Of a stretch of DNA of 64,000 nt, positions 21,668 to 63,591 are shown in pieces. The stretch spans positions 4,764,343 to 4,828,342 of the forward strand of contig CM030859.1 of assembly GCA_018105865.1 (NCBI GenBank), in the 5' to 3' direction. Positions within the stretch are counted from its first letter, which is position 1. Each line of letters opens with the position of its first letter. Both the position numbers and the translations under genes were made by a program. The notes below the pieces were generated by a model. That model did not search any database, was not told the origin of the DNA, and worked only from the letters and a program-made list of their open reading frames with translations. The stretch comes from Metaphire vulgaris. Its lineage: Eukaryota; Annelida; Clitellata; Crassiclitellata; Megascolecidae.

Positions 21668-21739
21668 CCAGCAATATTAATGATTATGACAATAATAGCA
21701 TTTACAATTTTTGTGGAAACTGAAATTCTACTGGAAAAT

Positions 21740-22570
21740 TAAATTTCCACTTATCCACAAGCAGGGACAGCAAATCAAAGACCTACGATTTGCTGATGAC
21801 ATTGATCTAATGGCTGAGAGTGAGGAAGACCTGCAGAAGCAACTCACAGAGGTATACCAAACCAGCAAAGAATATGGATTACTTATTAACAGAAGCAAAA
21901 CAAAAGTGATGGTGATGGGAAACAACAAAGGAGTTCAAATACATGTTGATGGTGAAAAGTTGGAATGTGTTGATCAGTTTATTTACTTAGGAAGTCTAAT
22001 AACCGAAGATAATGACTGCAGCAAGGAGATAAGAAGACGGATTGAATTGCAAGCAGTACTTTTCAATTTGAACATGATCTGGAAAAAGTAAAAACATTTG
22101 CACAGACATTAAATTGCGAATTATGGACACTTGCGTGATATCTACCCTACTGTATGCATGTGAGACATGGACCATGAAGAAACAAGACAGATTAAAACTG
22201 AACGCATTTGAAATGAAATGTTATAGGAAAATGCTGAAAATAAGTTATAAAGATATGATCAAAATGATACTATTCGCAAAGACCTGGGACGAACAAAGAC
22301 TGTTGTGGAGAAGATCAAAGAAAGAAAATTATCGTTATTTGGACACATCTGCAGAATGAGGATGACAGAATAATAAAGACAGTGATGATGGGCAGGTCAA
22401 ATGGTATGAGAAAAAGAGGAAGACCAAAGAGAAGATGGATCGATGACATTCTTGAATGGACTGGACTTGACACCACCCAAAATGCGATATACATGGCCAA
22501 AGAAAGGAAAGGGCCATGGGCGAGCACTTTTACACCGTTGGCTCCGACGGTCCTTATGGACTATGGAGTG

Positions 22571-24178: not shown

Positions 24179-24559
24179 CTCTCTGCCCTCCCTGCCACAA
24201 GATAGACAAGCGCTATTCATGAATATTAATGAATTGTTAAACCCAAAGAAAAGTAATTAGTAATCCATGCTGGTTTCAAATTCATTCGAAATCTGGAATG
24301 AGAACGTGAGAAGGTGAAAGAATCTGCAATTTGGCTGCAATTTCAGTGGAAAAACAATCAAAGGCAGAAATTCAGACATACAGCGAGATACGAATTTCAG
24401 GTATTTGATATAATAACACTGGTCAACAAGGTTTTTGTTGCTTTTTTTAATTTCTGGGGTACCATGCTGATCACAGGAATAACTTTGAAACTCTCCTATC
24501 ACGTAAGTTTAGGCCTAGTTCAAGGCTGTGAATTGAATACCTGTATGCCGATATCTCTC

Positions 24560-24676
24560 TATACCTGATACCATCAGTTTGGTCCGTGCACTGGTCCTGT
24601 CGCGCATTGACTATTGCAATAGTGTTTTATTGGGTCTGCCTACGACGAGACTGAACTCCCTCCAATCTGTGATTAA
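24560..24676 (+). mobile_element. CR1-like LINE, left part (split by piggyBac)
   Basis: The plus frame reads LVRALVLSRIDYCNSVLLGL...LNSLQSVI, the well-known CR1/Jockey-type segment after the RT. It stops at TTAA, where the piggyBac element begins, and resumes at 27231. Confidence 0.85.
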
Positions 24677-24979
24677 CCCTAGAACGCATGACGGGGTCAT
24701 TTTGACCCCGAAGCAAGTATTTTTGTAGAATAACTTTCTCCCCAAAAAAGATTTTGCGGCGAGCCATGGTGACATCTTCCAAAAGTCTACAAGTTAGACA
24801 TAGATGACATAGATTTGTAAATTGTGAACATCCAAGCCTAACTACAGATGTTTATGTAAGTAGTGGTAGTATGTGCATGACGGGGTCATTTTGACCCCGG
24901 AATGGTACTAACACATACTAGGGAAATCTGGACAATTCTTGAGATAGAATCCATCATCATTATATGGTACCACTTATTT

Positions 24980-24983
<4 letters not shown>

Positions 24984-25047
<64 letters not shown>
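24984..25047. repeat. (TAA)n microsatellite in the piggyBac element
   Basis: About 21 TAA units. Confidence 0.95.
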
Positions 25048-25229
25048 TTACAATGATATCTGGAGCGTTTCCTGTGGTGTTATTACACGTGAAGTAGAGA
25101 TTATCAGTTGTCACAGAGAATTAGCTGTAAATTGTTGTAAATGTGACTAAAAGTGAGCAAAATGATTTTGTAAATCAGAAGCTGGGAATAGGATTAGTGG
25201 TTGGCTAAATGACAATACTATAGTGATAG

Positions 25230-26165
25230 TTCGGACGCGGACGTGGCATCACATGACGAAGACAAATTGGACCATCCGGTCATTCCTACACAGGAGATGA
25301 GTCAGTCTAATGCTGATAAGGGATGCAATGATTCCTTGTCACTGATGAAAGTTTGGCAGTTGCCAGTGATATCAGCGGCCAAACTGTTGAGGCAGTTAGT
25401 ACACAAAACCACAGGTTATATGTAGACCAGAGATTATATGTAGCACCATAGCAGAGTCAGGACGAACTTGGGACTGTTCCTCCCATCAAGTCACAGACAG
25501 TTCAAGTCAATCTAATTATGGAAAAGGCCTGGGCTGCAGATGCTGCAAGGAAAATAGGGACAATGACTGATGTATTTTCTTTGTTTGTACCGGATTCAAT
25601 GCTGAATGACATACTGAAGTATACCAACGTCCAACAAATATGCTCTGCAGTCGGAAGGGAAAGATCCACTGAGTTGCATTTCAGTTACACTTCTGGAGCT
25701 GAAAGTCGTTATAGGTTTGCTGTATTTGATGCATATGGTGTCTGCAAGGGACAACACGAGTCAACGAGACAACTATGGAGTTCTTGATCACTCGGACGAC
25801 CCAAGTTTACCGTTACCACGTCAATAAATGGTTTCGACGCAGTTCTTTCCCACATGCAATTCGATGGTCGTGAAACGCGTGGAGTTCGCCATCAGTCAGA
25901 TACATTTGCTCCATTTCGTTACATGTGAACCGCCTTTATTGACAACTGTTTGGAAAACGATGTTGTGTCACCACACAGGACAATAAAGTAGATGAGCAGC
26001 TCATGCCATTTCGTGGGCGATACCCATTTTAAAAATACTTACCAACCAAAACCAAACAAAAATGGTTTGAAAGTATGGTTGCTAGTTGACTCGGAGTTCT
26101 ATTATGTGTACAATGCGAAACCGAAGACCTACATTGGACAAGAAGGCGATGGTGTGCAAAACAAC
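25230..26165 (+). pseudogene. Degraded piggyBac transposase
   Basis: Fragments in shifting plus frames follow the DDE_Tnp_1_7 order. They are an acidic N-terminal part (SDADVASHDEDKLDHP), an LNDILKYTN segment, an SHMQFDGRETRG...DTFAPFRYM segment, then VDEQLMPFRGRYPF (25989-26030), and NKNGLKVWLLVDSEFYYVYN. DEQLMPFRGR carries the first catalytic aspartate of piggyBac transposases. Stops and frameshifts occur between the blocks, and the C-terminal half with the later aspartates is missing: the coding ends where a MITE copy starts. It cannot encode an active enzyme. Confidence 0.9.
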
Positions 26166-26168
26166 TCT

Positions 26169-27061
26169 CTGTTGGGATCCTATACTTAAAACCATAGATG
26201 TAAAAAACGTTTTTTATGTTTTTTATTTTTTCTTAAAAAACATGGTTTTTAATGTTTTTTAAGTTCCTTATGTTTTTTATTTTCTGTATCTTATTGCCTG
26301 CATATCACTTTCTGAAGGGATACGTTTTAATTATTCTGCTTGGATTTGGTTCGCTGGTTCATTATTTCCAATGTTGGAGTTGTGGAATTTGAGCTGGGGT
26401 GAGATTTCACCCCCTTCTTCCGGCAACTCCAACACCGACTATTTCTTCGTTCGCAGAATCCAAGGAATTCTTCATGCGGAAATAATTAGTGTTCGACAGC
26501 AGGTGTCATCGGCTGCACTGAGGAAGGGTTAGGGTTAGGGTTATCGTTCGGAATGTTGGGGCGGTCATCTGATAGAAGCCATCTCTGACCGGTCAACGTG
26601 GGTCGAAGGTGTTTCAGCTTTCGTTAAGTCGCTCGTGAGAATGTTCTCGAGGTCCGAGGTCAAAGGTTCTATAACGCCTATCAGGGCTTCTAGATGTTCA
26701 AGTGTTCTATACCTCACAATACAGTAGTATTGGATACTTTTAAAAATCATATTTCATTTGTGTAACGACTGACTGAGTTCTGGATCGTTCAATTGAATTA
26801 CTTCATTAATATGTGTCGAATGTAATGCATGGATGGATGGTCAATAAAGGTCTGTAAACGAGGCCAATGTTTTTTAAGACAATGTTTTTTAATGTTTTTT
26901 ATTATTTTATAAAAAACATGTTTTTTCATGTTTTTTATTTTAAAATTTATGTTTTTTACATCTATGCTTAAAACTACATACTTAGCAACAAATAGTTGGC
27001 CCCATGCGCAGAAGTTGCCACCCAAATGCCCCCCGCTTGCCAAATCCTGGAGCCGCCACTG
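26169..27061. mobile_element. Partial CAGTGGCGG-type MITE inside piggyBac
   Basis: CTGTTGGGATCCTATACTT (left piece) and ACTACATACTTAGCAACAAA through GGAGCCGCCACTG (right piece) match the MITE at 44838-45027 once the hAT element 26193-26966 is removed. The left terminus of the MITE is absent. Confidence 0.8.
26193..26966. mobile_element. 774-bp hAT-type element with 16-bp perfect inverted repeats
   Basis: CATAGATGTAAAAAAC at 26193-26208 is exactly inverted at 26951-26966, flanked by identical CTTAAAAC octamers (26185-26192, 26967-26974). Both subterminal regions consist of repeated TTTTTTATG/TGTTTTTTA motifs. The central part is CpG-richer unique sequence with GGGTTAGGGTTAGGGTTA near 26526. 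No transposase. Confidence 0.9.
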
Positions 27062-27230
27062 CTATGACCATGTATAATTATTTGCATTTAATATGTCATA
27101 AATAAATAGTTTTACAATAATGTAATAAATAAATAGTTGTATAACTTTGTTATACGTGGTTGTTGTTTGGGGTCATTTTGACCCCGTCATGCGTTAACGT
27201 TTGTAAAAAGCTCATGCGCTCTAGGGTTCA

Positions 27231-27682
27231 TTAACACAGCCGTGTGGCTAATATTCGGTCTGAAATGGAATGCCCATGTTTCACAGCCGCTGAAAGATCA
27301 ACTCCATTGGCTGAAGATTCCGGAGCGCATTGTGTTGAAACGGTGCTGGCTCACGTTTCGGGCACTTTATGATCCGCACTGTCCTACCTATCTTCGTGAC
27401 TTGATTCAACCTGCTCCGTCAGTACAATACCGTTCCCAGCTTCGGTCGAGGAATCGCAATCCGCTGCTTGTCCCCCCTCCGGCCAGGACTCCTGCCCTCG
27501 GGGACAGATCCTTTCGGAGAGGCAACCCAATCCTGTGGAACACCCTGCAAGGGTGGTCACCATGGAGACTTCGCCAGGAGCGTTTTTGAAGAACATGAAG
27601 ACACACCTGTTTAAAATTTCTTTTGGTTGTTAGACGCCTTTGACTTTAGCCTTAGCTATGCGTACGGCGTCGAATAAATCGT

Positions 27683-27722
<40 letters not shown>
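27231..27722 (+). mobile_element. CR1-like LINE, right part with (AAT)n tail
   Basis: Resumes after the piggyBac insertion as NTAVWLIFGLKWNAHV, then LHWLKIPERIVLK, TYLRDLIQPAPSVQYRS, LGDRSFRRGNPILWN and KNMKTHLF. This is the classic CR1/L2 C-terminus with one frameshift. It ends in CGTCGAATAAATCGTCCTG followed by AAT repeats (27689-27722). Confidence 0.9.
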
Positions 27723-27723
<1 letters not shown>

Positions 27724-27819
27724 CCTATATGAATACCTGTATGCCTATATGCCTATACAGGCATACCTGTATGCCTATTTCTTTTTATTTTATTTTTTAT
27801 TTATTTTATTTTATTTTTT

Positions 27820-28490
27820 TATTTCTATTTCCCTCTACTATAACCTTCCCAAAGCCTCCATCAACAAATTGCAATCAATACAAAATGCTTTAGCTCGTGC
27901 TGTTACTATGTCACCTAAATTCTCCCATATTTCACCCATACTAAAATCATTACATTGGCTTAAAATAACAGAACGTATCCAATATAAGATAATAACACTT
28001 ACACATAGCTCACTTCAGTCATCAAAACCTGTCTACCTTAGATCACTATTAACCCCTCAGCCTCCTCGACCCACACGTTCGTCATCTCATCTCACTCTGT
28101 CACGCCCGCTAAATCAGTCATCCCTGAAAATTTGCAACCGTGCCTTCTCATATACGCTGCACCTGAACTCTGGAACTCGATCCCAGCTTCCCTTCGCACA
28201 CTTGGACACTTTCAAACAATAAAATCTGAGTGTCCGTTTCCTATAATTCCTGCACTATCTCCTCAAGTCTTCAGGTCTAAGCTTAAATCCTTCCTGTTTC
28301 TTAAATCATTTCCGCCATAGCTGTAACAACCTAGCCTCACTGCCCTTCGGATATTGACTATTGCCTGGCTGATCCCACATCTTTCCTATAGCTATTTTAA
28401 GAGAGGCTGAGCGCCTAAGAATAAGCAGCTACTGTTGTGCTGCTCTCCAAGGCGCTATAGAAATCCACGAGATTTTACTTTACTTTACGT
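27820..28490 (+). mobile_element. Second CR1/L2-like LINE 3' end
   Basis: The plus frame encodes INKLQSIQNALARAVTMSPK, LKSLHWLKITERIQYKI, SSKPVYLRSLLTP and, after a frameshift, APELWNSIPASLR and FRSKLKSFLF. The 3' end reads GGCGCTATAGAAATCCACGAG and then ACTTT units. It is 5'-truncated. Confidence 0.9.
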
Positions 28491-28876
28491 TAATTTAATT
28501 TATTATTTGCCAGTAATTTCGCAATGCATCTGCATTAGGCCTAAAAGTTGTGTTGAAATCAATGATAACAGAGGAATGTTAATGAGGAGAAAACCCGTTA
28601 TTTATTCACAGAAGAATGTTACTCTTGTCTTAAGCATAATTAGCAGATAGGCCTAGAGTAACAATGAAGTTGTTAAACAAGTCTTCTGCACGGAAACGGT
28701 TACGGTAGCCTAAACGAATTTGTGCAAATACAAGGAAAATAGGCCTAACACCCGGGTGACCCGACTGGTGCTGAATTGTCTTTTCAGTTTTCTCTTTGCA
28801 CGCATTCACATGTTCTCTATGTTTTGCATATGCACACTTGCGTCATCGGGGTCCACGAAAATGACGAAATGCTGCT
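28491..28876. other. Unannotated stretch
   Basis: No recognised gene or repeat ends. Confidence 0.35.
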
Positions 28877-28884
28877 GGTGTATA

Positions 28885-29073
28885 CAGGGACGTAGCCAGG
28901 AATATGATTTGGGAGGGTATAAATTTTTTTTTGGGGGGGGGTATAAACCTTAACTATAAACCATAGGCTATAGACTACATATAACCACATAAATCACATA
29001 AAAAACTTTAAGGTAGACTGATTTTTGGGGTATATTTACTGATATACACACCCCCCCCGTCGCTACGTCCCTG
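28885..29073. mobile_element. hAT-type MITE, GGTGTATA duplication
   Basis: Ends CAGGGACGTAGCCAGG and ...GTCGCTACGTCCCTG are inverted. Exact GGTGTATA copies are at 28877-28884 and 29074-29081. 189 bp, with G-run and C-run subterminal stretches. Confidence 0.9.
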
Positions 29074-29147
29074 GGTGTATAATGACGGAATGTTCGTAAA
29101 TTCCACGTCTAATTCGCTCGATGTTTGCGTATGCTGCCCAGCCAAGG

Positions 29148-29448
29148 CAGAGCCGTAACTAGGGTTTTCAGCGCCCGACACAAGATTTCTATTTTGCGCC
29201 CCTAAATTTCGGTGATGACCTTTTTTTTAGCCGTCGCAAGTTATCTTCTTCCTAAAACACTAAAACACTCCATTTTCAGGGTGATGACCTTTAGTTATCT
29301 TCACCTTATAAAACACTCCTTTTTCGGGGTGATGATCTTTTTTTTAAAAAATCGTCACAGCTATGTTTTTATTCACATCAACCAAAAATGCGCCCCCCCG
29401 ACGGCTCGGTGCCCGGGGTGGATTGCCCCACCCCTAGTTACGGCTCTG
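29148..29448. mobile_element. hAT-type MITE, AGCCAAGG duplication
   Basis: CAGAGCCGTAACTAGGG on the left is exactly inverted on the right (CCCTAGTTACGGCTCTG, with one extra C). AGCCAAGG flanks both sides (29140-29147, 29449-29456). The interior has GATGACCTTTTTTT motifs and GCGCCC runs. Confidence 0.9.
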
Positions 29449-29453
29449 AGCCA

Positions 29454-29745
29454 AGGGCGTAAAACACGGGGGGGACGGGTGACGGTCTCCCAGGGCCCCA
29501 ACAATTAGTAAGAGGGGGACAGAGTATCAATTTCAATTATCCTCCCCCAATGTTTTGTGCCTATGGTAAAAAATTTATATCCTCGTCCCCATGATATTGA
29601 TACCAGGATTAAAACCAACAGCATTCACTCATTTCGGATGACCTTTTTTTGCTCGTCGACACAGTTTTCGGGTTTTTGGGAGACGAAAAGGGGTCTGACC
29701 TGATTCTATAGACGATTCTACCCCCTCAATGTTCACACCAAGGCA
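29454..29745. mobile_element. Truncated MITE related to 59391-59801
   Basis: Starts AGGGCGTAAAACACGGGG, as in the element in WNK intron 3. It shares the GAGGGGGACAGAGTA, CCCCAATGTTTTG and GATGACCTTTTTTTGCT stretches. The outer ends are degraded and no duplication was identified. Confidence 0.65.
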
Positions 29746-30152
29746 TTATAAAGAATTGGCATAGTCCAGGCTCCAGAATATCAGAGGCATAGTAGCCTCT
29801 ACAGGTGAATTTTTGGTCTGATCACATTATTATTATTAAATTATTATTAGGGCCTTAGGGTTGCGCCTTACGCCCTTACCGATAAAATTTTTTCCTTGAT
29901 TTGGCATGAATTTCAGAACATTTTGAGGCCACTGTACCCCTTGTGACATACTACTGTTGGAAATATGTATAGAAATGTTGTATTTTTTTAGAATTTTAAA
30001 ATAATCAATTAGGTTTGTAAATTGAATCATATTTGTATTTTTGTTCTTATTGTTTTACAATCCTACTTCAGCACTGAATCTTAATTTGGGTTATATTTTT
30101 ATGCAATCTCGGCTATGGTTTTGTGGTTGATGTGCAACAGTTGTCTTTAGGA
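29746..30152. other. Sequence upstream of the PRDM9-like start
   Basis: AT-rich. No clear core promoter motif or upstream exon was recognised. A 5' non-coding exon further upstream cannot be excluded, because CAACAG at 30135-30140 and TTTAG at 30146-30150 are possible acceptors just before the proposed start codon. Confidence 0.4.
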
Positions 30153-30342
30153 ATGGCCTTTTTTGAGCTTCGGTCATATGAGGAGTATGAGAAACGGATT
30201 GACGAGGCATACGAGGATGTCAGCAAAACACCAATTGACCTTCGGGAGTATATGTTGGAAGAGGATCTGGCTAAAATGTGTGACCTGGAAAAGTCAGTTT
30301 CCATCAATCGACTTAGAAACTACTTGATTATGAAGAAACTTG
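30153..30342 (+). CDS. PRDM9: PRDM9-like exon 1: KRAB-like domain
   Basis: Residues 1-63, ending in phase 1 at CTTG|GTAATT. Residues 29-57 (DLREYMLEEDLAKMCDLEK...RLRNY) follow the spacing of the human PRDM9 KRAB segment (DISIYF..EEWAEMGDWEK...KRNY). It is a divergent KRAB: the canonical W of EEW is L here. Confidence 0.8.
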
Positions 30343-32749
30343 GTAATTTAATGGAAAATTGGAAATACCAGTAACTATATTTTGTCAGCCTTTACACATA
30401 ATGTACTAAGAGCAGATGAACACCTACCGGTAATCACATTTTGATGTGTGTTGTTCATCTTCCAGACTTCATGGTTTGACAGACCTATTCCCATTGCATG
30501 AAATTCTGTCCAATTCAAATGATGACTCTGAGTATTTATTCATCAAGATGAACTGTGCATTTTGAAGAGAACACAGATTATTTAGTCTCTCAGACATTTG
30601 GCTGAAATTTTTATGATTAAGTTTATATTGCACAGTGCACACAAATGGTGATTTCACTTTCAGATGCATACACTTGTATTTAAGTGTCTTTCGGATTGTT
30701 TCAAAACACAGTAATAAAGCAAACTGCATGACCACATAAATGCTTAGAATTGTAATCCTCTAGTGATTTTCTTATTTACCTTAAATTGATAAAATTAGGA
30801 TATTGTAAACATTTTATCAATTCTATTATGCTTATGACTTTCTTCATTTAAAATGAGTATCAGTTATTTTCAGTGCAAATTATTATAAATATACAACTCT
30901 CATTGGGTGGAAAATTGTCTACTGTGTGATTTGCAGGGATCTTTGTCTTAAATTTATGTACTGCATCAATTTGAACACCTAATATGTTTTTATTATGGCT
31001 ATTTTTAATTATTCATTTTTGAAGATACAGCCCTGTATTGCAGCATATCTGATATCTTGTTTATGAGCTTACTATTGCAGCTCCTTAATATTATATGTGT
31101 TTAGCTCAGTTTAGTATCTGCATTTTATAATTGCTTGAGGCATTCCTGTAGGCACAGACATTCGACCTCCAGAGTTTCTAGCCAAGTCACAGCGGCCTAA
31201 TCGCAGGCCTAACATGCCTGAGAAAAGCATGGATCCTACCTGGAACCCTGGAAAACAAGGGAAGAATTCTAAAAGTATTTAAAGCCCTATTTGTCAATTT
31301 TTCAATTGTAGAGTCTAATTCAGAGTGGTATATGATGGTCAGACGTGTGGGTAAATATTGGCATTTCTCCAGTTCCCATTTCCCTTGCTATTTAAAGAGT
31401 GGACAAGTAAGTAAGCAGTGACCTTACATTTTCTCCTCCCTCCTACATATATCGCAGTGGTCTAGTATAAAAAATGAAAGGAGACTTTTTAGCGATGGTA
31501 GTGTATATTCTTTACAATTGTTAACATTTCTACAAAAGAATGAAGAAACTTTAGTTGATAAGTCTGTTGTTTAGTCATTCTTTCTTTATAGATTGGAAAC
31601 CCACAGTATGGATCACCAACAAAAATGCCAAGAATCCTTCTCTGAGTCAGGTTAAGACCTTTTTCTGTACACTGTCCATATCATAAAGTTAATTACATTG
31701 GTGGGTAGAAAGATTGTGCTGGCTTTGATACTGGAACCACCTTTATTGGTTTCCAGTACTAAGATATATAAAGTATTTACGCCTATTTCAATTATAAAAT
31801 TTCTTTTTGCATACCGATAATTAAAAAATGAATTTCCATCGCTTTGAATAATTTGTTGACTTTGCTTCTTTAATGATGAATGCGGTTCACCTATAGAGAG
31901 AGGAAGTGGAATCTTCTCAGGTGGTGCCAGGTATGTCTCAACCTGTTGAGCGTGAGTCTTTCTATGAATTTCGACGCGTTGAAGCACGGAGACTATTACG
32001 TCGGCTACAGGATGAATTGGAATTTATACTCTTCCTGAAAGAAGCTGCTGAAAAGAAAGTGATTGATTGCGATGAACTTGACTTTCTTGATCCTACAGGT
32101 ATTGATGTTTTTAATCATTGGCATTGATAATGATATTTGCATTAAGCAAATGATTTACCTTTCGTATATATTTGCTCAATGTGCTGTAAATACTGCGGTA
32201 TAATATTTCTGAGCAGATCATACAGAATAAAGTTGATCTCTCAAAAAGGTGGTGTTTCATACCCAATGATGATCAAAATATTCATTCTGCTGATATACAG
32301 TTCTAAAATTTGAGGTTGTGAGAAATTGCATGTTTGAATTTCAAATATGCTGTTAAATGCAGATGATGTCAATTTGACTAAACTGAAGAAGATTATTCAG
32401 GAAAAACAACGGAATGAAGGTCGCAATAGATATCCAAAGAGAAATATCACCAAAATTACTTATTGTGAAATCAAGGAGCCAGGCGATGATGAATATCTTT
32501 GTAAGTGCTTATGTAAAAATTTTGTTTCACAAGAAATATTGCTGAAATGCATGCTATCATAACTTGTCAATTGCACCCAAGTTCATTTATGAAAGGTGCC
32601 TAAAACCAAGACCACATCACTGGTAATGACGGTTGAAACAGTAAATGGATTCAAAGGCTATCTCAGAAAACTAGGTTATTGAATGTGGAGAGTTACTACA
32701 GTGGTCTTCACACAAGCTTACTTCTTAGCCTCCTAAACCACTTTGAATC

Positions 32750-32804
<55 letters not shown>

Positions 32805-35800
32805 CTTCATTAAAATTATATGTTGATGATATTTTAGCTTCTATGTTTTATTTGTGGTTAATTCCCCTCATATTTTGATAACTATTCATGATTCCATATT
32901 CATTTTCTTCAGGCTATTGTTTTATTTATTTATGATTTCAAAATGGCATTTGTTTGATCTTATTATATGCAGTGTGCACACAATGTAACAAGAAGCACTT
33001 GCATGGACGTTGCCCCGTCCATGGTTTACCTTGTTTCATTGAAGACAAACAGACCAGTGGCAGACATGTAAGAAATGTGGGACAACTGATGGCTCCTAAT
33101 AATTATGCTTCTTGGACGACACCGGATTGTCTTGAGGTTGCATCTTCAGGCATTTCTGGTGCTGGATATGGAGTGTGGACTCGACAGGCATTTCTAAAGG
33201 GAATGATGTTTGGACCATATCGAGGGAAGAAGGTTTATGAAGAGATAGTTGCTCGTGATTCCAGCTATGCATGGGAGGTAAATGATGAAGTTTTTAGCTG
33301 TCTTGAATACTCCTGGAATTTAGAAAATTTGAATTATTTTTAAAAAGTAATTATTTGCACATCCTACTTTATGAATAGCACCTTTATAATATAATTAACC
33401 ATATTCTAAAAGAGTGGTTCCCAAACGGTGGTACGCATACCCCCAAGGGTACAAAATGGACTTTCCAGAGGGTACGCGAAAGGCAGCGGATTTCATATGC
33501 ATTGATATCTGATGGTAAGAAATGTCACAATGTTTTTAAAAAGTTCTAAGAAACTGTGAGTTGATTTGATTTTCCTTTAACTGCAATGACGAGATAAAGG
33601 CCTTTTGGACTCTTCTAACCGGTCACTCCTCCCTTTAGAGTTTAGCCTATAAAATTCAGATAAACTAGTCACAAGAATGCATGGTCATTTCATTGTTTTT
33701 ATTTTACCGATATGCAATTTTATCCTTGAATGTTATATGTATGCTATTTTGATCCTAACTAGCAATTAATGATTAACTCTAATGCAGTCCGATCAGGTTT
33801 TAACTTTTAAGACTTTAGGTGTATTACATTTGACGATCAAGCTATTGTTATGTCTTTGCTTTCAAAATTGAAAATCTGCTTTCTTAACCCTTTCTCTTAC
33901 TTCGTGAATAAGCTGCAATGAAAATTAGAGATACCCCATTTCAAATGCTGTAAAGAAAATTGAGACAGGCAATATTGACTGTTCTAGTAGGATTTGAAGC
34001 AAAGAAGATGGGGACAAATGGAAATATGGTTTCCATCTGAGAATTTGTTCAATTTGCTGGAATTTTTGCATTATTATACACCGACTGTTCAATATTATTT
34101 CCACTGTCTTATGTCACACATTAAATCGATTTTTATAGGCCTGGGGATGGCATTGAGAAACAACTACTGCCACTGACTACAAGAGTGATGACATCAACAT
34201 AATTAATGAAAGTTATGCTTGATTGAAATGAAATGGCAAGTACTACAAGTCAATTGAGGGATGAGCCGTGACTTGTATCACAGGTTTTATAGATAACAAC
34301 AAAAATTATCAAATTGATTCGATGTGTGTCAGAAGGCAATGGAAGGAGGATTGAATAGTAGGTGTATAGATATGCAAAACTTTCAGCATTTTGAACAAAT
34401 TCTCTGATGAAAACCACATTTTCGTTTGTCACCATCTTCGTTGCTTAAAATCCTACTAGAATACAGTAGTGAGTAGTCAGTATATAGCCTGTCTTGATTT
34501 CGTTCTATGGTGTTTGAAATAGGGCATCTATCACTTTTATTGCAATATATTCACAATCCAAGTTTACTACAACTTATATAGTATGCAGTGAAGCAAAAAG
34601 TTTAAAGTTTTTTTTAAAATTAGGGAGTGTGCAGATTTTCAAAAAGTGCCTGAGGGGGTACACCGACCAAAAAAGTTTGGGGACCACTGTTCTAAAAGTT
34701 TCTACCTGGAGATATTTTCTTTCATTTGAATGAATACTTGTATATCTTAATTTTGAAGATTTATAATGATGGAAAGTTGGAACATTATATTGATGCTCAA
34801 GATCCTTGTCATTCAAATTGGATGAGATATGTCAATTGCTCTTCTTCTGAATCAACACAAAATGTGAAGGCATTGCAGTTCTGTGGGCAAATCTATTACT
34901 GTGCATGCATTGACATCCCACCAAATATAGAGATGTTGACATGGTATGGCGATCATTACGCAGAAGAATTGCAGCTTGTTGAAAGGACGTCTAAACTGCG
35001 AGGTTTAAGGAAATCTTTAGATATTATTCAATTATTTTGATTAAAAAAATTAAAGTGATTATATAAAAATAATAATCGCTGAGTGAAAAATGATTCAGTT
35101 GTATCTGTCCAGAGTGAGAATGTTTGCCATGTGTTAATTTTGTAATTTTTCATAGTTATTTCTGGTTCAGGTATTACCTACAACAATGAAATTCATATTC
35201 TGAAGTTGTAATTGTGATCAGTTTAGACATTATGAAATTCTAATGAATAATATATTTAGGTAGGTCGTACGTTATTTAATATTCTATCATTCGATTGTTG
35301 TCTGAATGGCGTGTGGAGCTGAGAAAATGAGAGAGAAAAGTGGTGGAACATATTTAACTGAAATTTAGCTGAAAGACATGATTAACTATTTGGTCACTGA
35401 CACCATCATTGACTAATGTGATGATGACGACAATGAAAGTAAGAAAAACTAGAAGAATACTTCAACGTAGTAGGTGCAAATTCTGGTTCTGGAGATATTT
35501 CCTTGATTGCAACTTTTCATATGAACATGATATTCTATATTTTGGTGTTAAGTATTACAGGCACTGAGCATATTCAGCGAGATTCTTGTTTTCTTTTGCA
35601 TGGTGTCATTTTCAGTCGGTCATGTATTCGTCAATAGAGCCAACCACAACGACCTGAAGAAGAAGAGTGTAAAGGTTGATGAATTTCCTTTGCCTGAGAT
35701 AAGAAGAGACCTTGGTTTTGAAGCACGTCAATTGGAACCACGTGAATTCAATGAACTAATATCGGCTGATTGCTCTGAAGAAGGAAAATGTGGATTATTG

Positions 35801-36265
35801 GTTGAAGACAAAGAGAAACCACATCTCTGTTCGCAGTGCAATAAGTCATTTAGATGGAAATCAAGCTTTAGACGACACAATAAGATTCACACTGGAGACA
35901 AACCTTACGAATGTTCTGTTTGTGGGTTGAAGTTTCGCCAGTGGACTGGTCACAATCAACACATGAGTATTCATACTGGGGAGAAACCCTACGATTGTTC
36001 TGTTTGTGGGGTGAAATTTAGTAGAGCATCTAATCAAATTAGACACATGAAGATTCACACCGGGGAGAAACCCTTCCAGTGTTCTGTTTGTGGGGTGAAA
36101 TTTGCTAGATCATGTAGTCAAATTAATCACTTGAGGATTCACACTGGGGAAAAACCCTTCCAGTGTTCTGTTTGTGGGATGAAGTTTCGCCAGTCGAGTG
36201 ATCGAAATATACACGTGGGAATTCACACAAGAGAAAAGGCATTGAATGCTGCTCGTGTGCAGTGA
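30153..36265 (+). CDS. PRDM9: PRDM9-like histone methyltransferase with C2H2 zinc-finger array
   Basis: Eight exons join with consistent phases into 636 codons: KRAB-like (about 29-63), a helical charged region (about 140-185), an SSXRD-like motif (about 214-235), a zinc knuckle (C239, C242, C251, H254), PR/SET (about 270-412) and five C2H2 fingers (492-624). PR/SET holds SGISGAGYGVW, FGPY (Tyr320), NWMRYVNC, QIYY (Tyr386) and WYGDHYAEEL (Tyr402). These match vertebrate PRDM9 motifs, including the tyrosines needed for H3K4/K36 methylation. Known role of the family: fingers bind DNA, the SET domain marks nucleosomes, and meiotic double-strand breaks are directed there. All four hallmark domains are present, which only PRDM9/PRDM7 combine. 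The start ATG (GGAATGG) is my choice; extra 5' exons are possible. The array is short, and a decayed sixth finger follows the stop. A candidate ATTAAA polyadenylation signal is at 36311. Confidence 0.92.
31152..31274 (+). CDS. PRDM9: PRDM9-like exon 2
   Basis: Residues 64-104, acceptor CCTGTAG|GC, donor AAAA|GTATTT, phases 1/1. TDIRPPEFLA resembles the RATRPAFM segment that follows KRAB in vertebrate PRDM9. The rest is basic and proline-rich. Skipping the donor would give an immediate stop. Confidence 0.75.
31592..31650 (+). CDS. PRDM9: PRDM9-like exon 3 (59 nt)
   Basis: Residues 105-124, acceptor TTTATAG, donor CAG|GTTAAG, phases 1/0. Short linker exon, supported mainly by splice sites and phase continuity. 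Confidence 0.65.
31897..32098 (+). CDS. PRDM9: PRDM9-like exon 4: charged helical region
   Basis: Residues 125-191, acceptor CTATAG, donor CTACAG|GTATTG, phases 0/1. FYEFRRVEARRLLRRLQDEL and the following FLKEAAEKK look like a long amphipathic helix or coiled coil. I know no named domain for this region. Confidence 0.7.
32363..32500 (+). CDS. PRDM9: PRDM9-like exon 5: SSXRD-like motif
   Basis: Residues 192-237, acceptor ATGCAG, donor CTTT|GTAAGT, phases 1/1. RYPKRNITKITYCEIKEPG followed by DDEYL aligns with the PRDM9 SSXRD segment (SLRERKGHAYKEVSEP, DDDYL). Confidence 0.88.
32754..32802. repeat. (TA)n microsatellite in PRDM9-like intron 5
   Basis: About 45 bp of TA dinucleotides. Confidence 0.95.
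32973..33277 (+). CDS. PRDM9: PRDM9-like exon 6: zinc knuckle and first half of PR/SET
   Basis: Residues 238-339, acceptor ATGCAG, donor GAG|GTAAAT, phases 1/0. CTQCNKKHLHGRCPVHG is the zinc knuckle before the SET domain. SGISGAGYGVW and FGPYRGK are SET motifs. The split after SSYAWE is within the SET domain. Confidence 0.92.
33412..34689. mobile_element. 1.28-kb hAT-type element in PRDM9-like intron 6
   Basis: The left end GAGTGGTTCCCAAACGGTGG and the right end, reverse-complemented, CAGTGGTCCCCAAAC are inverted termini. The target duplication TTCTAAAA is exact (33404-33411, 34690-34697). Inside are inverted arms of 149 bp (33982-34130 and 34313-34461). No transposase recognised. Confidence 0.9.
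34759..35002 (+). CDS. PRDM9: PRDM9-like exon 7: second half of PR/SET
   Basis: Residues 340-420, acceptor TTTGAAG, donor GCGAG|GTTTAA, phases 0/1. SNWMRYVNC, FCGQIYYCACI and WYGDHYAEELQL are nearly diagnostic of PRDM9 and include two of the three active-site tyrosines. Confidence 0.93.
35616..36265 (+). CDS. PRDM9: PRDM9-like exon 8: zinc-finger exon
   Basis: Residues 421-636, acceptor TTTTCAG, to the stop TGA. After a charged linker, five C2H2 fingers follow, with TG[E/D]KP linkers and 28-residue spacing (cysteine pairs at 492/495, 520/523, 548/551, 576/579 and 604/607). Helix positions -1, 2, 3, 6 read WSSR, QTGQ, RSNR, RCSN and QSDI, so DNA-contact residues vary while the frame is nearly constant. 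All fingers lie in one exon, as in vertebrate PRDM9. Confidence 0.95.
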
Positions 36266-36300
36266 AAGTTGCTCATTTGATTCAATGAAAGTTCAAACTG
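36236..36300 (+). pseudogene. Frameshifted remnant of a sixth zinc finger
   Basis: After finger 5 the linker reads TREK, then one base is missing from the expected proline codon. In the shifted frame the DNA encodes IECCSCAVKVAHLIQ before a stop, matching the CSVCGVKFA... start of a finger (two cysteines two apart, then VK). In the used frame the protein ends NAARVQ. Confidence 0.65.
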
Positions 36301-36448
36301 ATTAAGCACAATTAAATTAGAGGCTACATCAACATCTATCTATCTATCTATCAACAATCTACATCAACTCATTTCATTTGTTGTGAATTGTTCTCATTTG
36401 TTTGATTCGTTTTCAATACACTACCTGGTGATTTTTTCAAGCAAATAT

Positions 36449-36988
36449 CAGTGATGGGCAACTAACTAAAAAACTACAACTACAAGTTAAACTACAACTA
36501 GATTTAAACTAGAGGTAAGTAGTTAAACTTTTAGTTGCAAACTAACTTTCTAAAATAGTTAACTAAACTACAAAATTATGGTTAAACTTTTTGCAACTAA
36601 TTTTACAACTATTTCCCAGGCATCAGGTTTGTGTTCATGAAAATATAGACGGTGCTTGCAACTCGAACATGTCAGTCAATGAACCATCGATATCGTTAAT
36701 CATTGTCTATTTATTATTTAAGTCTCAGTCTAGACTGCAGGAACACAAAGTTTGTCTAGTTTTTTTGTTGAAAAAATGACCCAGAAAGGAATAGATAAAA
36801 AGGTACTGTTATTGAGAATTCAGGACACCAACTAACAAGTTTTAGTTAAACTATTTAGTTATTAACTAAAATTTTTCAGTTAAACTAGCATTTAAACTAA
36901 TCTATATTTAGTTAAGCTATGAAGATAACTAAAACTTTAGTTAAACTTTTAGTTAGTAACTATTTAGTTAACTAGTTGCCCATCACTG
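36449..36988. mobile_element. hAT-type MITE (CAGTGATGGGCAACT family), copy 1
   Basis: CAGTGATGGGCAACTA is inverted with TAGTTGCCCATCACTG. Exact GCAAATAT duplications are at 36441-36448 and 36989-36996. The interior is made of AACTAAA/TTTAGTTAAACT-like low-complexity repeats. It lies just downstream of the PRDM9-like gene. Confidence 0.92.
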
Positions 36989-36996
36989 GCAAATAT

Positions 36997-38640
36997 AATA
37001 CAGTAGCTTATTATTGTTCACAGCCTACATAAATGTTCAATTAAAACGTTTTATCTTTTGACAATTGTTTTCAAGTGTTTTACAAGGCTGTTTTGATTTA
37101 TATAACTCCATATAATTTTGGAGAAGCCATTGCAAAATGTTCTGTCACTGAATTATTTGACTCATTGGATGATTGCTCTAATATACGTTGATGAAACTGT
37201 AAGAGGGATTTGCTCTATTCAGGGCATTTCGTGCAAGCATGTTCTTAAATAAGACCAATGCACTTGATGTTGCACTTAATGTTTGCATATTGCATACTGT
37301 ACTTATTACTTGTTATTTCCTTTATCTAACGAATTATTTATTTCATTATCTGTAATATCTCCATCACCCCCTCATCAGGACCCTTCACTATGAAGGGTGC
37401 CGATGATGGTATTTCGAGCCATTAGTACTATTAGACGTTTTATGTAGCGGTTTCTGAGCCATTCAAATGTAAGACTGTCCAAAATTTTCTGGAAAATTTG
37501 ATTTTCTAATTTCAATCTTATACATTATATATAGTCAGATTAGTGTGACACTATTGAAAAATGCGAAGACAAGGTTCTCAAAACGAAAGAGCCCTTCCCG
37601 ATCACACAGGGTGACAGGATTCATGGCGTGGGGCAGATCTCTGTTTCTAAGTCAGCCTCTATCGGCCCTGGGCCTACTGTATATGGATAAAAATCAATTG
37701 TCAGGACAGAAATGTCTAACTTCTTGGTTACAGGATACTAAGAATCTGGAACAAAGTTGGCCCAAAAGTTAGTTATACCAACTCCGGTGGGTTTATGTTT
37801 CAAAACATCAAATGCTTGTAAATCAGCTGCACTAATGCCTGCTTAACATTTTCAAAAACTGAGCTGCCAATATTTGTCCAATCACCATCATGCTTAACAA
37901 TGAGAGGGTTGGAAACAAATAAAAACACTGTTTGATTGCAGTGACAACAGCAAGTGATTAAGCCGATATTACAGGCCCAAAATTTCTCAAACACAAAGCT
38001 GTGGCGGTCCACAAGAAACATCCTCGCGGTCCGAATTGTAGACCGCGGGCCGCGGTTTGAGTACCCCTGCTACAGGTTAAGCCATTAATCAGGAGTAGGT
38101 TAGTTAAAGCATTATTTATCTGCATGACGATGATGATGATTATGATGGTCAAAACAGACAACCACATTCGCTGAGCCCTTAGTTAAGGCGATGAGATACT
38201 TTGAGCGTCGCCACCTGTCGACCGTCTGTAACACTAAGCCGAAGATGGCGCCGTGAGGCTGGAAGTGGCACGATGGAATAAGGATACTTTGGGCGATCAT
38301 ATATTTTGACGCTTGGTTCTGCGGTTCTCGCAGAACATGAAGTGAGCGTCCCTATGCCCAGACACTCGATTAAACGCATCTAAGCAATTGTAAGTAATTG
38401 ACGCTAAATTATTTTATTTTAAAGATGCAAAGATGTGCAGACGTTAAGTAAGTAAGATCGTTTTGTTGTGATTAGTTGTGTATAGACTGGCTGCCAAACT
38501 GAAGTCCTGTGGAATACGGGGAATATTCTCAGATTGATTCAAAATTGGTTGAAGGGAAGAAGACAGAATGTCGGCATTTGGGGGAGGCCATTCGGAATGG
38601 GCAAGAGTTATTAGTGGAGTGTCGCAGATTCTTAGTTTTG
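36997..38640. other. Stretch with degraded repeats, no gene
   Basis: 37571-37680 weakly resembles the 3' body of the tRNA-derived SINE at 60960-61243 (CCCTTCCCGA...CAGATCTC). 38010-38080 ends with GGGCCGCGGTTTGAGTACCCCTG, a lone hAT-type terminus whose partner end was not found. The rest is unrecognised. Confidence 0.4.
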
Positions 38641-46470: not shown

Positions 46471-47728
46471 TCTTTTAATGGCATTTTGACTATATTGTAA
46501 TCCTTGTACAAATGTTGGGGTCCATGAGGATATCAAGAGTCAGAGATAGGGGTCTGCCACTGAAACAAGCTTGAAAATGACTGATTTAAGCTACAACTTG
46601 ATCTATATACCGGTATTTGAGGTTGATGAGTATTTGATTGGTTTTAAGAAGGTATGAGAGACAGGTTTGTGCCTTTTCTTGCTGGAATGTTCTTGGACTA
46701 CATTTGCTGATTGCTCTGTCGTTGACTTGATGAAGACTTTTGCATCTGTGCCCTTATGCAAATGTTGTCTGATTGGGTCAGAATTCCAGAACTTTGTGCA
46801 ATTTGTCTGTTGCCATGGTAAAGAATGAAATGAACGGATTATAAAGATGACAATGACTTTCCTAGTTTTTCATTGTTCCACATGGATTGGACTTTTTGTT
46901 CTTTCATTTGAGGTTTCCCAGTATTATCATCCTTTTGGCTGACAGGCGTTTTTGTGTGAAGCAGTACATGGAGGGAGTGTTTAATTATCATTATTGTTGT
47001 TGGCGTTTCTTGTAATTTGAAATTCTGATTAGGATTGTGATTATTATAATGAGTGTAATCATTAGAGCACTATGTATACTGTTATTACCATTGATTCCTC
47101 TGGCCAATAGTTATTGTGTTTACTGATGTTTTTTTTTGTATTTGATTTACCCGGTATATTCATTGTCATTGGTGTTGTTATTGTGGTATCAGTTTATCTT
47201 ACTTAAAAATTTTGGATCATATCATCATTGTTATAGTATCGTGTTTTTTTTACAGATAAATGATGTATTGTTGTTATTATTAGCTATTTCTTAGTTAGAT
47301 TATTATTTGTTTGTAAGAGGGCTTCATTATCTCTTCTGCCAGACACTTTGCCTTGAGATGATGAACTGACAGTAATGGATGCTGGTTTTGGCTTCTTAGT
47401 GTCTTCAGGATGCAGCTTTTTTATGCAGCAGTTTTGTAGTCTTGTTAAAATCATGGAGAATGTCCATTTTTGTTTTGGTCATCAGTGAGACGTGGTGCCT
47501 GATTTGACCTGTACTTCATGTTCTGACTGGATGTCTACTTGGTTCTTTTCTAAATTTCTTGACTATTGCAGTTGTCTGTTTTGATGATGTATTATATATT
47601 CATTGTTGTTTTGGTTGGCAGTCGATGTGTCTGATGGATGCCAATATCATTTGTGTGAGAGTCAGACACCCTCCCACACTGAATCTCCACAATTCCTTAC
47701 AACATTTTTCACATCTCTTCACTCACAG
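46471..47728. other. Region 5' of the first recognised WNK exon
   Basis: T-rich with scattered short frames. No upstream coding exon recognised. A promoter or 5' intron is plausible but no site is convincing. Confidence 0.35.
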
Positions 47729-47751
47729 CTGCTGAGGCAGGAGTTTCTGAC

Positions 47752-63591
<15,840 letters not shown>

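Follow-up and report, generated by a model that had tools for sequence, protein, structure and literature searches.

The window analysed here, a stretch of 64,000 nucleotides from the earthworm Metaphire vulgaris, carries a gene of eight exons at positions 30153-36265 (this and all other features given below are on the + strand), which encodes a protein of 636 amino acids followed by a stop codon. Exon 1 (30153-30342) contains the start codon and, from about residue 28, a KRAB-A-type domain; the KRAB-related region ends in exon 2 (31152-31274). Exons 3 (31592-31650) and 4 (31897-32098) together gave no match to an invertebrate PRDM9 profile (hhalign E 0.37). An SSXRD-like motif, RYPKRNITKITYCEIKEPGDDEYL, lies at approximately 32428-32500 in exon 5 (32363-32500). 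The zinc knuckle and the first half of the PR/SET domain are found in exon 6 (32973-33277; codon of Tyr320 at 33218-33220), and the second half in exon 7 (34759-35002; codons of Tyr386 and Tyr402 at 34897-34899 and 34945-34947). Exon 8 (35616-36265) encodes a linker and five C2H2 fingers (35828-35890, 35912-35974, 35996-36058, 36080-36142 and 36164-36226) and ends with the stop codon at 36263-36265. The order of domains is thus ancestral-type KRAB, SSXRD-like motif, zinc-knuckle PR/SET and C2H2 fingers. All seven introns have GT-AG ends, and the exon end phases (1, 1, 0, 1, 1, 0, 1) are consistent. An earlier note on this DNA had described eight exons with matching phases and all four domains in an apparent invertebrate; the host is indeed one, and the structure was confirmed by the gene model, by profile comparisons and by Pfam matches to SET/PR and C2H2. 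It is not a chance arrangement, since the same exon structure recurs elsewhere in the genome at 13 separate loci, in some of them with one exon damaged. In the window gene and 13 other copies an acceptor-like TAG stands 1-2 bases 5' of the ATG, which suggests an unseen 5' UTR exon.

Pfam detected the SET/PR domain and the C2H2 fingers of the window protein, but a cut-off as loose as E<=10 brought up no KRAB and no SSXRD match. The same two domains were absent from the Pfam results for seven invertebrate PRDM9 records (for two of them, among the best 25 families), and eight KRAB pieces gave no KRAB match. Profile comparison by hhalign with eight annotated invertebrate PRDM9-like records, however, matched both regions at the corresponding places, with E 3e-9 for KRAB and 5e-9 for SSXRD (each value being that of the single comparison). 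A KRAB profile built from eight sequences (the window copy, one paralog and six others) found the KRAB domains of ZNF93 (7z36, E 0.0034) and ZNF568 (0.018) at the top of the PDB ranking, unrelated proteins appearing from E 0.13 on; the SSXRD profile had no match in the PDB. Judged by these comparisons, the N-terminal domain is of the KRAB type that characterises PRDM9, and the SSXRD motif is PRDM9-like by its match to the invertebrate PRDM9-like records, not to vertebrate SSX itself.

The top PDB match of the SET domain was that of PRDM9 (4c1q, E 1.7e-34), followed at lower rank by PRDM14 (2.3e-24), PRDM12 (2.3e-21) and PRDM11 (7.2e-18), and 69 of 167 residues aligned with the mouse structure 4c1q were identical. 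Tyr320, Tyr386 and Tyr402, which the earlier note had listed as retained active-site residues, aligned with Tyr276, Tyr341 and Tyr357 of PRDM9. Of 16 gene copies, 15 retain all three; the one that does not, L017, has a frameshift in exon 6. A SET tree of 19 rows and approximately 71 columns, from which PRDM11 was left out, united the earthworm copies with the PRDM9s and set them apart, with 100/98, from PRDM14-like genes of this genome. The nine other PRDM9s also formed a side of their own without the earthworm copies, weakly (69/83). Ranking and tree put the window SET domain closer to PRDM9 than to the other PRDMs compared, and the earthworm copies may lie either among the other PRDM9s or beside them. 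The stem leading to the earthworm SET domains is long (0.52), and they have common changes adjoining the conserved NWMRYVNC stretch; both points count against the explanation favoured below. PRDM14 was considered as an identity for the window gene and rejected because PRDM9 ranked above it in the PDB; locus L034 of the same genome fits PRDM14.

Mammals usually have one PRDM9. The window gene is not "the" PRDM9 of its species, as the earlier note had supposed, but one of 14 eight-exon copies (two of which are perhaps one locus), in addition to two likely haplotigs. Ten of the 14 are intact, all of them on chromosome-scale contigs (14 Mb or more), and four are disrupted; at one more locus, L010, nothing beyond exons 1-3 was seen. 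A single invertebrate PRDM9 directing recombination would agree with the architecture and the catalytic residues, but the 13 other copies already refute "single", and we regard this as extremely unlikely. No single-copy PRDM9 beside the family was seen among 47 SET-exon matches in the genome, of whose weaker members four loci were read and one was tested and fits PRDM14, the three weakest (on C19, C7 and C31) and the fragments on C36, C38, C4 and C157 lying outside this reading. It might be thought that assembly artefacts, namely uncollapsed alleles, had inflated the copy number. L014 is 99.8 % identical to L013 and L023 98.9 % to L022, L014 and L023 being on contigs of only 127 and 74 kb; L016 equals L017 where compared; and the assembly paper describes a highly heterozygous genome with haplotigs in unplaced scaffolds (PMC7666815). 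Any two of the ten intact copies, however, are 3.6-11.5 % apart over exons 1-7, and all ten reside on large contigs, so that this explanation is very improbable.

The unit shared between copies extends at its widest over 29743-37665 and includes exons, introns and flanks common to other copies, several of which match a shorter stretch. An upstream block (24195-24416) lies within approximately 15-80 bases of the block starting at 29.74-29.85 kb in L009, L020, L021, L022 and L023; in the window copy this upstream region is split by about 5.3 kb (24417-29742). Two more insertions distinguish the window copy. One, in intron 6 (33412-34690), has hAT-like ends (GAGTGGTTCCC / CAGTGGTCCCC) and the direct repeat TTCTAAAA, and was unmatched in the 15 other full copies aligned. 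The other, 3' of the stop codon (36449-36989), has hAT-like ends CAGTGATGGGCAAC and the direct repeat GCAAATAT, and found no match among the other copies aligned. A whole-genome duplication was considered as the source of the copies. For the neighbouring WNK gene in the window, the best other WNK match in the genome reaches 65 % protein identity across 176 residues, whereas the peptides of exon 1 and of SET in the full copies agree with their window counterparts to at least 77 %. This is no more than a hint at a more recent origin of the PRDM9 copies. When seven other open reading frames of the window were compared with Pfam, there was one reverse-transcriptase match.

The window copy has five fingers and the ten intact copies have 5-8. 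Among 72 array fingers from 13 copies (10 intact, 3 disrupted) 67 were distinct, and residue diversity peaked at DNA-contact sites and their neighbours in the helix (6, -1, 3, 1 and -2). Only six of 10,626 four-position sets, {-1,2,3,6} included, were as diverse as {-1,2,3,6}. Finger backbones were more alike within arrays than between them (0/5000 permutations). What is surprising is the presence in one genome of about ten intact PRDM9 copies whose DNA-reading fingers differ. Baker et al. linked PRDM9 that directs recombination to the complete architecture together with rapid finger evolution, and complete vertebrate PRDM9 has a contact-site share of diversity, P, of 0.331-1.0 (Baker et al. 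2017, Table 1, PMC5519329). We set our values directly against that table, the actual criterion of Baker et al. being the rank among all C2H2 genes of the own genome. P of the window copy was 0.246 (0.309 without finger 1), that of 14 other copies with all fingers 0.215-0.341, and only L021 (0.341) exceeded the lowest complete vertebrate ortholog. Among the ten intact copies, two rose above 0.4, and did so only once finger 1 was left out (L011 0.457, L021 0.543). Uncorrected pN/pS was 1.19 at contact sites versus 1.14 at other helix sites. Since the array lacks strong contact-site diversity, the PRDM9-directed recombination proposed in the earlier note is possible but not indicated by a P of 0.25/0.31, below the complete vertebrate orthologs, even though diversity across copies is highest at contact sites and their helix neighbours. 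Within each of two presumed allele pairs (n=2) the number of fingers was the same, which, like P and pN/pS, counts against the explanation favoured below. L011, L018 and L020 have second finger exons downstream.

Outside the finger exon, dN/dS over exons 1-7 was 0.38 (11 copies, 55 pairs), with 0.24 in the KRAB exon, 0.49 in exons 2-4, 0.42 in the SSXRD exon and 0.34 in SET. The constrained SET domain with its intact tyrosines and the KRAB exon as the most constrained part suggest that methylation and the KRAB part still matter. The differences in P between copies, together with the four disrupted ones, the locus L010 and the three unmatched insertions of the window copy (one of them in its upstream region), would also suit a mixed family, in which one or two copies (e.g. 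L021 or L011) do the hotspot work and all the rest, among them the window copy, are redundant or in decay. Salmonids, with full-length and truncated paralogs, offer a parallel (PMC11703093). The window copy, however, is open across all eight exons and has a dN/dS of 0.27-0.50 against ten others, and we consider a mixed family rather unlikely.

Invertebrate PRDM9 genes of full length have been published before (Oliver et al.), so the topic is not, as had been claimed, rarely considered outside vertebrates. The PRDM9-like proteins of Owenia, Branchiostoma, Asterias, Cryptotermes and Trichonephila have the same domains in the same places; these species show 1-3 records each among the matches listed, in contrast to the earthworm family of 14. 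No close relative of the window protein was among the matches listed, the best being Owenia PRDM9-like, which covers 95 % of residues 1-420 and is 33 % identical there. The profile search for PRDM9 proteins, whose candidates were proteins of 0.55-1.75 times the query length, returned no vertebrate; mouse and human PRDM9 sequences were taken from the PDB. With vertebrate PRDM9 (Meisetz) the earthworm genes share the KRAB-SSXRD-zinc-knuckle SET-C2H2 order and the tyrosines corresponding to Y276, Y341 and Y357, but they differ in the ten intact copies, the low contact-site share, the long tree stem and KRAB and SSXRD parts below the reach of Pfam. Several PRDM9 genes per genome are also known from catfish, cattle and salmonids (PMC5519329; PMC11703093). 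The eight catfish genes, however, are SET-only in Table 1 of Baker et al. 2017 (PMC5519329), which gives three PRDM9 genes for Bos taurus against six in its text, and salmonids have one full-length PRDM9 and in some species a second (PMC11703093).

Tetrapod KRAB zinc-finger proteins are not known to carry a SET domain. They resemble the earthworm family as duplicated genes with KRAB and diversified finger arrays, and differ from it in that the latter has an ancestral-type KRAB and a constrained SET domain; as such a protein (KRAB and fingers without SET) the window gene was rejected, because its SET domain is present and constrained. In function, though, the parallel could go further: a PRDM9-derived family might consist mainly of sequence-specific regulators of chromatin or transposons, each copy tracking a repeat family, with hotspots elsewhere or promoter-based. 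Many related copies with differing arrays in a repeat-rich genome (45.88 % repeats, PMC7666815) have the look of a repeat-driven expansion, and in each array contact sites hold a modest share of the diversity. Dreissena polymorpha likewise has, among the matches listed, 28 records (isoforms included) under PRDM9-like or zinc-finger protein names, of which one was positive with the KRAB profile and none with the SSXRD profile, and whose gene models may be truncated. The dN/dS values of SET and the KRAB exon and the intact tyrosines speak against such regulators, as does the ancestral kind of KRAB, for which human PRDM9 shows no silencing and no TRIM28 binding (PMC8835667). We hold this possibility to be somewhat unlikely.

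The genome has a ZCWPW-type reader gene: neighbouring exons at C5:683 kb encode zf-CW and PWWP, and the CW part has ZCWPW2 as its top PDB match; the gene may be a ZCWPW1 or a ZCWPW2. In the explanation that we favour, the window gene is a true PRDM9-family gene, one of 14 copies (ten intact) that arose when a unit of at most about 8 kb, introns included, was duplicated at the DNA level; the copies have putative methyltransferase activity and would act in the germ line to place breaks. We give this explanation as a whole an even chance. Each copy would work in the germ line as a histone methyltransferase: its fingers would select the DNA sites and its SET domain would write H3K4me3/H3K36me3 there. 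The KRAB and SSXRD parts may recruit partners. A ZCWPW-type protein would read the double mark, and meiotic breaks would be placed at the marked sites. With ten copies, the genome might use several target motifs at once. That recombination is directed by a multi-locus PRDM9 repertoire, with about ten full-length proteins of differing finger arrays marking breaks side by side, is doubtful. If true, the allelic turnover of one gene in vertebrates would be played out between paralogs in the earthworm. No PRDM9-directed system is known to have been demonstrated outside vertebrates, nor one whose specificity is distributed, and this would be the first of either kind.

Ten complete copies with only moderate finger scores test whether architecture suffices, and the family bears on how far back PRDM9-directed recombination goes and on whether hotspot erosion slackens when many specificities act at once. 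Since earthworms can readily be had, gonad RNA and chromatin maps are feasible. In a bivalve, an embryo and larva series shows a peak of PRDM9 in the blastula (PMC10451705), which counts against the favoured explanation.

The PRDM9-type gene at 30153-36265 (plus strand), rebuilt exon by exon, comprised eight exons encoding 636 residues and seven introns, all GT-AG, with exon end phases of 1,1,0,1,1,0,1. Pfam detected the SET domain and C2H2 fingers in its protein and gave no match to KRAB or SSXRD; these were likewise not shown for seven invertebrate PRDM9-like database proteins (for two of the seven, among the best 25 families only). In profile comparisons with eight invertebrate PRDM9-like proteins, exons 1-2 aligned with KRAB (E 3e-9), exon 5 with SSXRD (5e-9) and exons 6-7 with SET (4e-49), and exons 3-4 found no match (0.37), each value being the E of a single comparison. 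The KRAB profile (8 sequences) retrieved the KRAB domain of ZNF93 from the PDB first (E 0.0034), then ZNF568 (0.018), followed by unrelated proteins from E 0.13; the SSXRD profile matched nothing in the PDB.

The PDB structure nearest to the SET domain was PRDM9 (4c1q, E 1.7e-34), ahead of PRDM14 (2.3e-24), PRDM12 (2.3e-21) and PRDM11 (7.2e-18). The three active-site tyrosines reported in the earlier note (Tyr320, 386 and 402) were borne out, since the alignment placed them at PRDM9 Y276, Y341 and Y357; this numbering is that of Baker et al., and the spacing agrees with the PDB alignment. A tree built from 71 columns in the second half of SET, with seven earthworm copies, nine other PRDM9s and three PRDM14-like sequences from the earthworm genome (PRDM11 absent), united the earthworm copies (100/99) on a long stem of 0.52. 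Together with the nine PRDM9s they split from the PRDM14-like sequences (100/98). A grouping of the nine that leaves out the earthworm copies was weakly supported (69/83), so the family may nest inside PRDM9 or stand beside it. The PRDM14-like PR-domain loci were L033 (C37), L034 (C21), L035 (C21) and L036 (C15), of which L034 fitted PRDM14 when tested, L033 and L036 grouped with it in the tree and L035 looked alike by eye. Both the PDB match and the tree uphold the proposed PRDM9 membership, and the gene is very probably a PRDM9-family member within a multi-copy family.

This family is at odds with the single PRDM9 assumed in the earlier note, as 13 other copies accompany the window gene and 10 of the 14 are intact. 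We searched 728,303,522 bases in 246 contigs; the paper on the Metaphire vulgaris assembly reports 728,570,957 bp and 41 chromosomes, the longest scaffold measuring 50,191,389 bp (PMC7666815, consulted in part). The KRAB-exon query gave 26 matches (exons and fragments counted) and the SET query 47 (counting exons, fragments and other PR-domain genes). Only the best candidates were scored, so that copy counts are lower bounds. Besides the window, 19 loci were fetched, 15 of which shared the eight-exon structure (L014 in the seven exons other than exon 3). L025-L027 contained no more than a part of the KRAB exon, and the 9.9 kb examined at L010 contained exons 1-3; no SET match lay near it. Because L014 and L023 lie on small contigs and match L013 and L022 at 99.8% and 98.9% identity, respectively, over exons 1-7, we counted them as likely haplotigs, which makes 14 the likely number of copies. 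L016 and L017 lie 440 kb from each other on contig C43 (800 kb) and were identical where compared, and therefore the true number may be 13. Each of these two near-identical loci has its frameshift in a different exon, and they may represent an assembly duplication.

The copies intact as modelled were the window gene, L009, L011, L012, L013, L015, L018, L019, L021 and L022. All lie on contigs of at least 14 Mb: C28, C9, C4, C24 (three copies) and C18 (four copies, within 15.38-15.67 Mb). The other four were disrupted: the frame is broken in exon 8 of L016, in exon 6 of L017 (whose model also has a stop in exon 2) and in exon 1 of L024, and L020 has lost the acceptor of exon 5. The stretch that was duplicated, about 29.74-37.67 kb of the window at its maximum extent, contains the introns, and the copies therefore arose by DNA-level copying, not retrotransposition. 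The intact copies were 88.5-96.4% identical pairwise in exons 1-7. A neighbouring WNK-type kinase exon (47683-48996, plus strand; PDB WNK3/WNK1, E 4e-18) had its best other genome match (65% identical in protein) on C36, with weaker matches on C13, C2 and C4; this suggests, weakly, that the WNK duplication predates the PRDM9 copies. Further PRDM9-like SET fragments matched the query at C36:2702233, C38:3882078 (a contig of 12.2 Mb), C4:21885994 and C157:45112 of the same genome (G000). At 21699-22091 and 27182-28320 (plus strand) the window also held a reverse-transcriptase piece (Pfam RVT_1, E 2.4e-9) and, within the insert upstream of the gene, ORFs that by eye resembled retroelement tails and had no Pfam match.

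The complete PRDM9-type gene announced in the earlier note is thus real, and such a gene in an invertebrate is already known in kind. This follows from four papers, each consulted in part: Oliver et al. 2009 reported that Prdm9 fingers evolve in concert in Nematostella, Lottia and Capitella, and found germ-line transcripts in sea urchin and snail (PMC2779102); ancestral KRAB was traced back to Protostomia in 2022 (PMC8835667); a full-length copy is present in many metazoans (salmonid paper, PMC11703093); and a bivalve has one PRDM9 with ten fingers, its expression highest in the blastula within an embryo and larva series (PMC10451705). In the open-access literature we found no paper treating PRDM9 together with earthworms, and no title on invertebrate PRDM9 expansion (titles only, most subscription journals lying outside). 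Dreissena is likewise rich in PRDM9-like records (28, isoforms included) but differs in that the KRAB profile found its domain in one of the 28 and the SSXRD profile in none, the gene models possibly being cut short. The eight PRDM9 copies of catfish are SET-only in Table 1 of Baker et al. (PMC5519329).

Among 11 copies (the ten intact ones and L016; 55 pairs, dS about 0.18), dN/dS over exons 1-7 was 0.38; by part, it was lowest in the KRAB exon (0.24), followed by SET (0.34), the SSXRD exon (0.42) and exons 2-4 (0.49). The window gene gave 0.27-0.50 against each of the ten others. Of the 16 gene copies (haplotigs counted), 15 kept all three catalytic tyrosines, the exception being L017 with its exon 6 frameshift. 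The intact copies probably encode active methyltransferases.

There is about an even chance that the family guides meiotic breaks through marks that a ZCWPW protein reads. Intact copies would bind sites via their fingers and SET would write marks; by analogy with vertebrates, from which the steps after site binding are taken, the reader would recognize these marks and breaks might then be placed there. The genome has four zf-CW loci, one of which (C5:683 kb) runs into the start of a PWWP domain whose remainder lies in a nearby exon, an architecture like that of ZCWPW1/2. Its CW part was nearest to ZCWPW2 in the PDB, and the top single match of the whole query was the PWWP of MSH6. In vertebrates ZCWPW1 seems to co-evolve with PRDM9, according to the accessible text of the salmonid paper (PMC11703093).

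The ten intact arrays have 5 to 8 fingers by pattern. From 13 arrays (three from disrupted copies; L014, L023 and L016 left out; first finger excluded) we obtained 72 fingers, 67 of them distinct. Residue diversity peaked at helix sites 6, -1, 3, 1 and -2, in a helix numbering that agrees with the sites named in the salmonid paper. Only six of 10,626 four-position sets, itself counted, were as diverse as {-1,2,3,6}. Synonymous-only differences were scarce at -1, 3 and 6, as expected because residues there nearly always differ. Contact sites had a summed pN/pS of 1.19, other helix sites 1.14 and the backbone 0.41, all uncorrected for multiple hits. Backbone similarity was 0.855 within arrays against 0.830 between them, a difference reached in none of 5000 label permutations.

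The share of finger diversity at contact sites (P of Baker et al.) counts against a role in guiding meiotic breaks. P of the window array was 0.246 (0.309 without the first finger). Across 14 other copies that have four or more fingers, a set that includes haplotigs and disrupted copies, it ranged from 0.215 to 0.341 over all fingers and from 0.255 to 0.543 once the first was dropped. We compared P by value with the vertebrate table, whereas Baker's own criterion is the rank among all C2H2 genes of a genome; Table 1 gives 0.331-1.000 for complete orthologs with a value and 0.158-0.331 for partial ones, except one Myotis entry of 0.524 (PMC5519329, in part). Full-length genes of salmon and trout have 0.49 and 0.55 in the accessible text of PMC11703093. 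With all fingers only L021 (0.341) fell within the complete vertebrate range. Dropping the first finger brought L011 (0.457) and L021 (0.543) above 0.4 and placed L019 (0.364), L020 (0.346) and L024 (0.336) between 0.331 and 0.4. A role nearer to that of KRAB zinc-finger regulators would be an alternative to the placing of breaks; we regard it as rather unlikely.

Downstream of exon 8, L018, L011 and L020 carry a second, partly broken finger exon, possibly a spare or relic array. On the minus strand of L026 (C46), at about 3.4-5.1 kb, a finger-rich relative of exon 8 with broken frames lies near a degenerate KRAB exon, and 11 fingers were counted across its four ORFs.
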